This document shows positions 21,179-54,813 of a stretch of 64,000 nt of DNA, in pieces; within the stretch, counting starts at the first letter, position 1; every line of letters starts with the position of its first letter. The notes under the pieces are model-generated. The model had not been told where the DNA came from and searched no databases. It saw nothing but the letters and a program-made list of their open reading frames with translations. This DNA is from Candidatus Saccharimonadota bacterium (GTDB taxonomy: Bacteria; Patescibacteriota; Saccharimonadia; Saccharimonadales; UBA4665): contig PLYP01000002.1 in NCBI GenBank assembly GCA_003153395.1, positions 1-64,000 of the forward strand, given 5' to 3'. Position numbers and translations under genes: made by a program.

Positions 21179-21432
21179 TACTTTTTTCTCAGCACCTTAA
21201 AGCGTCCATCGGCTAGTTCTTTAGATCCACGGGTAACAGTACCTACGCCAACACCTAAATCACTAGCTATTTTAGCCTGTGTATCACCGGCAACAAGTCG
21301 TTTGATTATCTGTACACGTTGAGGCAGTTCCTGACGTTCTTTAGCGGTTGTTACACCAACAAGAAAATCTTCGAGTAGTTTCTTATCTCGAATAGAATGC
21401 ACCAAACTAACGAAGTCATTGAAATCTGACAT
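21178..21432 (-). CDS. trpR: Trp repressor family regulator (TrpR)
   Basis: An 84-residue TrpR-family protein. It contains TTAKERQELPQRVQIIKRL followed by the helix-turn-helix AKIASDLGVGVGTVTRGS, which closely matches the TrpR recognition region. TrpR represses when bound to L-tryptophan. Its own promoter contains an operator with the same ACTAG-N3-ACTAGT half-site spacing as the E. coli trp operator. The leader ORF, terminator, 306-residue gene and racemase gene lie downstream in one apparent transcript. The -10 box TAGTAT ends 6 nt before the ATG (leaderless). Confidence 0.9.
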   Translation of the reverse strand: MSDFNDFVSLVHSIRDKKLLEDFLVGVTTAKERQELPQRVQIIKRLVAGDTQAKIASDLGVGVGTVTRGSKELADGRFKVLRKK

Positions 21433-52469: not shown

Positions 52470-53744
52470 CTATTCCCTGATCGAGACAGCTCGGGCGTGC
52501 CCTTCTAGACCCTCCGATCGAGCCAAAGTTTCTATAGCACTGGATAAGTTACCCAAACTTTCTTTAGTAAGTGATTGAAAAGTCACTTTCTTTACAAAGC
52601 TATCCAACGAAACGCCTCCGTAACTGCGAGACCAGCCAGCGGTTGGTAGGGTGTGGTTCGTACCTGAGGCATAATCGCCCGCACTCTCGGGCGAATACGC
52701 GCCAAGAAAAACCGAGCCGGCATTCGTAACACGGCTGACAAATTTCTTGGGGTTTTTAGTGTTTAAAATCAAGTGTTCGGGTGCGTAGAGATTCGCAAAC
52801 TCCACGCACTGATCTAAAGAGCTAAACTCTATAGCAAAAGAATTTTTGAGAGCCGCTTGAGCAATCTTCTTCCTCGGTAAGCCTGTTAGCTGTTCATCTA
52901 ACTGATTGCGAACCAAGGAGATCCGACTCCGGCTGTCTGTCAAGAATACGACCTGACTGTCCGGACCGTGTTCGGCCTGACTGAGTAAGTCGGCCGCCAC
53001 GAAAGCGGGGTCAGCGGACTTATCAGCTATAACCAATAGCTCGGAAGGGCCGGCAGGCATGTCGATGGCCACACTTTTAGCAGCGTACTGTTTCGCTGCC
53101 GTAACATATTGGTTGCCTGGGCCAAATATTTTGTCAACTTTCGGCACGGATTGGGTACCCAGCGCTAGGGCGGCTATCGCTTGTATCCCGCCAACGCAAA
53201 TGAAAGTTGTCACGCCAACTTTTTGGGCAGCATAACACAATGCTGGGTTGACCGACCCGTCTTTGCCAGGCGGAGTACAAAAAACAATTTGTTTGCAGCC
53301 CGCCAGCTGAGCAGGTACACCGAGCATCAGGATAGTCGATATAAGTGGGGCCGTTCCGCCAGGAATGTATAGGCCTACGCATTCAATAGGTCTTGCCTCT
53401 CGCCAACACTGCACACCTGGCATTGTTTCAACAGACTCCTTTTCGACATCTAATTGTTGTGCCATGTGGAATCGCATGATGTTTATGTAGGCTATATCGA
53501 TAGCATCTTGAAGTCTAGCCGGTACTCCTCTTGCCAGCTGGCTAATTATTGCGGGATCAATCGTCACACTGTTCAACTTTACGCCATCGAACTTTGCGGT
53601 GTAGTCCATCAATGTCTTATCACCCTTGTCTTTCACCTGAGTAAAGACTTCTGTCACCAGGCTTTCGAGATTTGCACTGTCTATTTGAGGACGCCGGCAC
53701 ATTGCCTGCCACTGACTTCTGGTTGGGTTTCTATAGACTCGCAT
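52470..53744 (-). CDS. hisD: Histidinol dehydrogenase
   Basis: A 424-residue HisD catalysing the two-step NAD-dependent oxidation of L-histidinol to L-histidine. Visible: VGLYIPGGTAPLISTILML, FICVGGIQAIAALALGT, FGPGNQYVTAAKQYAA, MPAGPSELLVIAD, AEHGPDSQVV with zinc ligands, and SAGDYASGTNHTLPTAGWSR. It overlaps hisG by 14 nt. Only the first and last pathway enzymes are present here. GC is visibly higher than the surroundings. Confidence 0.95.
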   Translation of the reverse strand: MRVYRNPTRSQWQAMCRRPQIDSANLESLVTEVFTQVKDKGDKTLMDYTAKFDGVKLNSVTIDPAIISQLARGVPARLQDAIDIAYINIMRFHMAQQLDVEKESVETMPGVQCWREARPIECVGLYIPGGTAPLISTILMLGVPAQLAGCKQIVFCTPPGKDGSVNPALCYAAQKVGVTTFICVGGIQAIAALALGTQSVPKVDKIFGPGNQYVTAAKQYAAKSVAIDMPAGPSELLVIADKSADPAFVAADLLSQAEHGPDSQVVFLTDSRSRISLVRNQLDEQLTGLPRKKIAQAALKNSFAIEFSSLDQCVEFANLYAPEHLILNTKNPKKFVSRVTNAGSVFLGAYSPESAGDYASGTNHTLPTAGWSRSYGGVSLDSFVKKVTFQSLTKESLGNLSSAIETLARSEGLEGHARAVSIRE

Positions 53745-54369
53745 CTTCTGCCCTCAGTACAATTTCCGGATATACATCACATAATGGGTATACCTCTTGC
53801 AGCCCATTGTCACGAGCTGTCTTTCCAGTCCTTACCAAGTCGGCCGCAATGCCTATGCCAGTTAGGCTAGTCATAGCCTCAATGCTTCCGCTCAATTGCA
53901 GCTCTTCTAATGGTGTAAACCCAATGTCACGCCAAGAACATATCCCGGCTAGTAGTCTAGGACGGCTGGTTGGTATGGCCATGCTGGCCGCATATCTAGA
54001 ATCCGCCGTGAGCATTGACTCGACCACGTCTACTTTGTCTTGCTCAGCAAGGATCGAAAAGCGGCACATCGGCTCACCTATCCTTCGAGCGACCACTCGC
54101 GCGTCCTGATTGCGGGAAGGGTTCTCTATTACAGAATCTGTGCCAGCAATACCCACACCCTCATAGCGCCCTAGTAGACGCGGTATGTCCATGCCTTTAA
54201 AAAGCCAGAAAGTGCGGCCTTGTGAGCGCGCCTTGAGATCTTCTCCTTGAAAGGTTGGCACTTCAATGCCGCTAATCTCCTGGAGTGCCGCGATGCAAGG
54301 CTTTCTATCCTCGCCCTTGGGTACGTATATATTTTTTGCACCCTGTATCTTCTCTAAAATATCTTTCAT
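53731..54369 (-). CDS. hisG: ATP phosphoribosyltransferase, short form (HisG)
   Basis: A 212-residue catalytic subunit of the short HisG type, first step of histidine synthesis. VPKGEDRKPCIAAL start, GVGIAGTDSVIENP, ARVVARRIGEPMCRFSILAE, SRYAASMAIPTSRPRLLAG, and the PRPP-binding-type segment SIEAMTSLTGIGIAADLV match the family although diverged. Short HisG normally needs HisZ, which is not in the window. The gene follows yerC after an attenuator-like hairpin and has TTGGAG 7 nt before its ATG. Confidence 0.82.
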   Translation of the reverse strand: MKDILEKIQGAKNIYVPKGEDRKPCIAALQEISGIEVPTFQGEDLKARSQGRTFWLFKGMDIPRLLGRYEGVGIAGTDSVIENPSRNQDARVVARRIGEPMCRFSILAEQDKVDVVESMLTADSRYAASMAIPTSRPRLLAGICSWRDIGFTPLEELQLSGSIEAMTSLTGIGIAADLVRTGKTARDNGLQEVYPLCDVYPEIVLRAEDASL

Positions 54370-54400: not shown

Positions 54401-54425
54401 AAAAACGCCAGCTACGTGCTGGCGT
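54401..54425 (-). terminator. Attenuator-like terminator between yerC and hisG
   Basis: Minus-strand RNA ACGCCAGC-ACGTA-GCTGGCGT followed by five T: an 8-bp perfect stem, 32 nt before the hisG start. The end of yerC (54456-54470, CGCCAGCTCGTGCTG on the minus strand) is complementary to this hairpin's CAGCACGTAGCTGGCG over 15 bp with a single bulge, allowing an alternative structure. Confidence 0.82.
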
Positions 54426-54450
54426 TTGGTTTTTCGGGATAAAAAACTAG

Positions 54451-54777
54451 CTACTCAGCACGAGCTGGCGATAGATGGCTGTGATGAAGAGTATTCAGGG
54501 CAGCTTGATAACCGTTGCAGCCGTCTTGCAGCCAGTCGCTGATTCGGGCAACCGTTCGGCTACTAAGGCGTGTCCGGGCGATGATGTCAGTGTATTTATC
54601 TCCGGCTTGGAGCATACGCGCAGCCTCGAACCGTGCACTAATCTCAACGATTTCTTTCTCGGTCATAACATCGCGCAGGAAATTTTGCATGGTTCCAACA
54701 TTATCGATAGCCAGCAAGGCCTCAACTAGTTGCTGAGCTGTTTCGCCTCTCCAAACTGTAGTCTTGTCTTTAGACAT
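54451..54777 (-). CDS. TrpR-related YerC/YecD-family regulator with His-rich tail
   Basis: A 108-residue YerC/YecD protein (TrpR superfamily): FLRDVMTEKEIVEISARFEA, then an HTH with YTDIIARTRLSSRTVARISD and the typical DGCNGYQAAL. The last 13 residues, LHHSHLSPARAE and neighbours, extend past the usual end and contain three His codons (CAT CAC AGC CAT) immediately upstream of the segment that pairs with the hisG terminator. The 3' end may therefore double as a His leader peptide. YerC genes are commonly tied to his operons. -10 TAAAGT ends 7 nt before the ATG. Confidence 0.85.
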   Translation of the reverse strand: MSKDKTTVWRGETAQQLVEALLAIDNVGTMQNFLRDVMTEKEIVEISARFEAARMLQAGDKYTDIIARTRLSSRTVARISDWLQDGCNGYQAALNTLHHSHLSPARAE

Positions 54778-54784
54778 GCGCTAT

Positions 54785-54813
54785 ACTTTATCAAAGTAAA
54801 GTGAATATGTCAA
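54785..54813 (-). promoter_or_regulatory. yerC-his promoter with internal inverted repeat
   Basis: TTGACA (54808-54813), 17-nt spacer and TAAAGT (54785-54790) on the minus strand. On the plus strand ACTTTA-TCAAAG-TAAAGT (54785-54802) is a perfect 6-bp-arm inverted repeat across spacer and -10 box, in the same place as the TrpR operator in the trpR promoter, so it is a likely YerC operator. Confidence 0.6.

Follow-up and report, generated by a model that had tools for sequence, protein, structure and literature searches.

Introduction

Ribosome-mediated attenuation of histidine genes is a known form of control. In the his leader of Enterobacteria (RF00514) and in the His attenuators of Firmicutes (PMC9413887), His codons in a translated ORF are combined with alternative terminator and antiterminator structures upstream of his genes, and the ORF encodes a separate short leader peptide. 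The Firmicutes also have regulons of HisR, the product of yerC, in which histidine acts as co-repressor and the operator consensus is cacTTTAnnnnnnTAAAgtg; histidine-dependent DNA binding has been demonstrated for the R. gnavus protein (PMC9413887). The 2022 survey of HisR restricted its search for His attenuators to cases lacking HisR and T-box control, and Patescibacteria are not mentioned in it (PMC9413887). A similar two-layer logic, with initiation repressed and attenuation depending on stalling at specific codons, operates in the E. coli trp operon, although there the repressor (TrpR) and the leader (trpL) are separate genes at separate loci.

Two cases from Chlamydia also bear on regulator genes and leaders. 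In trpRBA, a putative trpL lies between trpR and trpB (PMC3937554, PMC6504234), that is, a repressor gene is followed by a proposed leader and attenuator, but this leader is separate and its function is doubtful; C. trachomatis is stated to be without TrpL-mediated attenuation (PMC7755916). In YtgCR, consecutive codons for a single amino acid (the WWW motif) inside the regulator's own precursor sense that amino acid (PMC7755916), as we propose for yerC below, but they act in trans by lowering repressor synthesis, without antiterminator pairing with a downstream terminator. Neither precedent is a leader fused to a repressor and acting in cis on a downstream terminator.

In this work we describe a probable case of such an arrangement in Patescibacteria, where, in contrast to the Firmicutes regulons, HisR and the attenuator appear to be combined in one gene, and the place of the short leader peptide to be taken by the end of a 108-aa repressor gene. 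It was recognized in a 64,000-nucleotide stretch of DNA from a Candidatus Saccharimonadota bacterium, which is called the window in what follows.

The yerC-hisG Locus

The window belongs to a genome of 0.92 Mb in 11 contigs. All features discussed here lie on its minus strand. The gene yerC (hisR, 54451–54777) encodes a TrpR-family regulator of 108 aa that matches PF01371 and TIGR02531 above cut-off. Its predicted fold agrees with those of the YerC-like proteins of known structure, 3FRW, 3G1C and 3KOR; both the domain and the TrpR fold thus place it among YerC/HisR proteins. Its closest named relatives are mostly from Candidatus Saccharibacteria. A second YerC/TrpR-like match, weak and below cut-off (21.8 bits), was noticed at 21211–21402 on the same strand.

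The 3' end of yerC reads LHHSHLSPARAE, and the protein terminates in NTLHHSHLSPARAE, the last codons being L-H-H-S-H-L-S-P-A-R-A-E before the stop codon at 54453–54451. The H-H-S-H stretch (54475–54486), with His codons at 54486–54484, 54483–54481 and 54477–54475, is the proposed stalling site and is kept in orthologues. The sequence-only reading from which this work started had placed these codons at the very end of yerC; the LHHSH motif is indeed present, but the cluster lies about 8–11 codons upstream of the stop. Downstream of it, still within the coding end, segment 1 (CGCCAGCTCGTGCTG, 54456–54470) forms the 5' strand of a putative antiterminator. It is followed after the stop codon by an intrinsic terminator hairpin (AAACGCCAGCACGTAGCTGGCGTTT-TTC with a T run, 54403–54427), which is also the partner in the antiterminator. 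Then comes a divergent hisG of 212 aa (53731–54369; PF01634 above cut-off, TIGR00070 below cut-off), proposed as the first controlled gene, and 3' of it hisD for histidinol dehydrogenase (52470–53744; PF00815, TIGR00069).

Segment 1 and the terminator part CAGCACGtAGCTGGCG form a 15-bp helix with a single bulge, exactly as the sequence-only reading had it. The energy of this duplex is −30.6 kcal/mol, compared with −12.6 ± 3.3 for shuffled segments (z −5.5). Both of the alternative RNA folds that it implies were obtained by prediction: the RNA folded from 54473 onward gives the antiterminator (−32.9 kcal/mol, z −7.0), and folded from 54441 onward it gives the terminator. Rfam scans found no family matching the element, and RF00514 was absent both at the gathering threshold and with E values up to 10.

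Conservation and Covariation in Saccharimonadia

YerC is rare among relatives of the window genome: it is encoded by 9 of the 93 family genomes and by 25 of the 392 from the order. Nearly all of these orthologues have an HHxH-like tail, then a proline-containing end, and a terminator soon after the stop codon. Across 19 aligned orthologues, HHxH or a close variant with at least two His is retained. At the RNA level, the His codons, the spacing of about 16 nt to the segment and both helices are kept with compensatory changes in 22 distinct Saccharimonadia loci. In their alignment, 89.5% of the cells of the antiterminator helix are paired and 8 of its 14 pairs are altered on both sides, compared with 2.4 in shuffles (0/500); the corresponding values for the terminator helix are 96.5% and 5 of 9. 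The conservation of the alternative helix, on which the sequence-only reading depended, is therefore borne out in this class, and with covariation. At two loci (L015 and L012), clearly divergent segments are each matched by a correspondingly divergent terminator.

Permutation of partners among 20 distinct Saccharimonadia loci gave a mean of −22.4 ± 0.56 kcal/mol, compared with −25.6 for each locus with its own partner, and none of 20000 permutations was as good as the cognate duplexes; one of these 20 loci (L030) shows no segment-terminator pairing. Since the shuffles leave the relatedness of the sequences in, their statistics are inflated by kinship, and the conservation figures should be taken as supportive rather than as exact probabilities. 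In the phylum-wide set, a median of 16 nt (interquartile range 12.5–16) separates the first His codon from the pairing segment, whose end is close to the stop codon. This spacing fits a stalled ribosome that frees the segment and a terminating ribosome that covers it.

Folding with a Positioned Ribosome and Survey of the Phylum

A ribosome shielding 13 nt from the A site was placed at either the first His codon or the stop codon, and the RNA 3' of it was folded. At 36 of the 45 His-tail loci of the phylum that have a T-run terminator, the terminator is gone in the first position and present in the second; with shuffled spacers, it is lost at the His codon in 4.2%. The remaining nine loci show no switch in this model, which we count against the attenuator reading, and among tail-less yerC loci 4 of 20 switch. 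The 45-locus count is unselected, while the loci of other classes were hand-picked in one run of the procedure. For the 22 Saccharimonadia loci, the median probability of the terminator is 0.00 while the ribosome sits on the first His codon or the one after it, rises to 0.79 with one further codon and is 0.97 at the stop. Without a ribosome in the model, the antiterminator is favoured at most loci, as expected if termination requires translation through to the stop.

A YerC profile search over 379 sampled Patescibacteria genomes found homologues in 122 of them. Of 101 loci inspected in detail, 59 have a His cluster past the conserved core, and these were compared with the 42 that do not: a T-run terminator is found at 46 of the tailed loci, 35 of them with a significant antiterminator in addition, whereas the tail-less ones have 20 terminators and a single antiterminator. 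The energy-based terminator finder missed or misplaced hairpins at some loci (e.g. L030/L046 and L129), so these counts are probably lower bounds. Outside Saccharimonadia, the same design is built from unrelated sequences, such as the tail CCAATCACGGAGAGGGTT and the terminator AACCCCCTCCGTAATTGG of locus L096. A different kind of YerC end was also observed at L123, L134, L138 and L147, with an HRHHR cluster and an extra end of 20–40 residues (..LQKYL..), without an attenuator.

Free-Standing Leaders

A covariance model built from the element was run on 294 genomes of the class, and 46 gave matches. Twenty matches outside yerC were examined in detail, and each allows a reading as a short ORF of roughly 12–20 codons with the same end as the yerC tail, for example MIINQIHHLHILPERIR (GTG start) and MLVLAIHHLHLSPERVG, each followed by a stop codon. 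In the ribosome-position folding all 20 switch, and the antiterminator reaches a z of −3.0 or better in 19 of them (−2.2 in the remaining one). By sequence resemblance, eight of these free leaders are upstream of histidyl-tRNA synthetase-like genes; further ones are followed by hisG-like genes, by a gene resembling M15 peptidases or by an uncharacterised family common to several tailed-yerC loci. They are mostly found in genomes without a detected yerC, and two genomes (G241 and G295) carry both forms. Taken together with the conservation and covariation of the helices, the spacing and the ribosome-position switch, the free leaders before hisS and hisG support the earlier proposal that the end of yerC is a fused His leader.

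Some yerC genes of other classes lack the tail but have a separate short His leader ORF at most 170 nt downstream. These unfused loci (L111, L112, L114, L117, L119, L121, L129 and L132) resemble the trpR-trpL order of Chlamydia; three of the eight switch in folding, and for several no switch was seen with the hairpin chosen. Family f88 has a nearly identical pair, the free leader of L129 (CATCATTCCAACTCCTCGCTTGAAGGGGTTGGTTAG) and the yerC tail of L127 (CATCATTCCAACCGCTCTGCTGGAGGGGTTGGTTAG), and the YerC proteins of both loci are close in the core-domain tree. From these near-identical sequences, the close proteins and the unfused loci, it seems that leader and yerC were fused or split more than once, the direction of each event being unresolved. 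We lean, with some reserve, towards a wider picture for Patescibacteria, in which a His-leader module has repeatedly merged with or separated from the HisR repressor gene; a merged gene would both repress initiation and use its final codons to sense charged His-tRNA, and the module would persist as free leaders after loss of the repressor.

Promoter Operator and Proposed Mechanism

The promoter of yerC in the window (TTGACA-17-TAAAGT, 54785–54813) has a layout that recurs at nearly all tailed-yerC loci of Saccharimonadia. A predicted HisR-type operator, ACTTTACTTTGATAAAGT (54785–54802), overlaps its −10 region and matches the published consensus. The motif TTTAnnnnnnTAAA was located close to the gene start at 46 of the 59 tailed yerC loci, compared with 5 of the 42 without a tail, and it turns up in 2.4% of the shuffled regions. 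Given this operator near its start, a tailed yerC gene probably both represses its own promoter and attenuates the downstream genes; the repression is inferred from the operator, and the binding of YerC with histidine is likewise an inference for the window protein. No HisR box was seen by eye in the promoters of the free leaders. A search of the whole window genome gave only one other exact site, inside an ndk-like gene, with no enrichment over the reversed pattern, and no wider HisR regulon can therefore be claimed. The start codon of yerC lies 7 nt past the −10 hexamer in the window and mostly 6–7 nt past it across Saccharimonadia, from which we infer that the mRNA is probably leaderless, here and in most of the class. 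Start codons that hug the −10 hexamer were noticed both in the window (54775–54785) and at the free leaders (L188–L207), suggesting leaderless mRNAs for both.

The proposed cycle would operate as follows. When histidine is plentiful, YerC would probably repress its own promoter, as judged from the operator, and the transcripts that do start would be translated past the His codons to the stop, where the ribosome would cover segment 1, allowing the terminator to form and leaving hisG-hisD untranscribed. When charged His-tRNA is scarce, the ribosome would stall at the first His codons and expose segment 1 about 16 nt downstream, which could then pair with the terminator sequence and let RNA polymerase continue into hisG-hisD. 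Stalling, termination and readthrough as such are inferred.

Genes Under the Proposed Control

It had been expected that the tail would occur only where hisG follows, and this does not hold: behind many tailed yerC genes lies hisI, hisS or an uncharacterised gene. Nearly all the tailed loci that do not precede hisG nevertheless retain the whole switch. A complete his operon behind a tailed yerC was verified at L013; elsewhere the tail is followed by hisG-hisD with or without hisI (the window, L014 and L015), by hisI-hisG (L039 and L056) or by hisS (L046). Other genes found in this position are an unknown 220-aa family with an AstE/AspA-like enzyme, and S66, M15 and M20 peptidases. Many tailed yerC genes thus precede genes without a recognised role in histidine metabolism, which counts against the attenuator reading. 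As several of the same kinds of gene follow free His leaders, we take these targets as probable histidine-supply genes and not as a refutation. The uncharacterised family of about 220 aa (motif YQ.AF..PW.EVSKC, no Pfam match) recurs behind His attenuators at L035, L016, L037, L043, L045, L188 and L199, with the AstE/AspA-like enzyme behind it in several fused loci, and is a candidate for histidine supply.

In the window genome, rated 100% complete, hisB is absent and there is no convincing hisA or hisF, only a marginal PF00977 match. The physiological role of hisG-hisD is unclear for this reason, a further point against the attenuator reading. The two genes look like a remnant of histidine biosynthesis under the proposed His control.

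Alternative Explanations

The His-rich tail might serve the YerC protein itself, in metal binding or histidine sensing, with the terminator merely ending the yerC transcription unit. The conserved peptide HHxHhxPA and the role of histidine as co-repressor of HisR (PMC9413887) would agree with this, yet free ORFs of 16–20 aa carry this peptide motif and the same RNA in the absence of YerC, and the nucleotides of the tail covary with the terminator downstream. Moreover, the tail is not part of the confidently predicted fold, with pLDDT values under 50 at residues 99–104, the YerC of Collinsella ends without a His tail, and 3KOR from S. aureus has only 5 residues beyond the aligned core; we regard a purely protein function as very improbable. 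Even less credit can be given to the idea that the pairing has no regulatory role and merely follows from a duplicated or palindromic terminator sequence. Segment 1 does resemble the terminator palindrome, which makes complementarity partly automatic, but unrelated segment and terminator sequences in other classes (e.g. L096, L097 and L162) show the same complementarity, which largely refutes simple duplication of a palindrome; the His codons stand at a fixed distance, and tail-less yerC loci have terminators without the pairing.

A little more room, though still not much, is left for control of the terminator by another factor, either an RNA-binding protein or yerC translation per se, the His codons being incidental. 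The preference for the antiterminator without a ribosome at most loci speaks for it, as the switch would then report translation to the stop in general. Against this, it is His codons and not others that occupy the stalling position in fused and free leaders alike, and the free leaders precede hisS and hisG. We therefore retain the attenuator reading: yerC is a HisR-type, TrpR-family repressor gene whose 3' end doubles as the leader ORF of a ribosome-mediated transcription attenuator, to which we give a probability of about 0.9. It rests on the anatomy, conservation, covariation, spacing, ribosome-position folding and free-standing counterpart computed here, without expression, stalling or termination data. 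Such an attenuator needs a translated ORF with cognate codons and an intrinsic terminator before the first structural gene, which are found here as HHSH in the yerC frame and the hairpin before hisG. It also needs a mutually exclusive antiterminator exposed by the stalled ribosome, which is met by computation only, and targets in the cognate metabolism, which hisG-hisD, the operon of L013 and the hisS- and hisG-like genes provide, several other targets being uncertain.

Conclusions

What is new is not histidine attenuation but the arrangement in which a repressor gene appears to be its own leader, with its functional steps inferred. In openly licensed papers, we found nothing beyond the Chlamydia cases on a leader peptide within a regulator gene, and no attenuator described for Patescibacteria; an earlier description is not excluded. 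If our reading is true, leader peptides are not necessarily disposable ORFs, as the end of a working repressor can be the codon sensor, and both layers of trp/his-style control, kept apart in other bacteria, would be held within one gene. Control by a single gene suits bacteria with genomes of about 1 Mb and little regulation. The element also supplies a covariance model for the Patescibacteria His attenuator, and the attenuators point to uncharacterised genes that probably serve histidine supply. Moreover, the related fused and unfused pairs offer material on how leader peptides arise or merge with genes.
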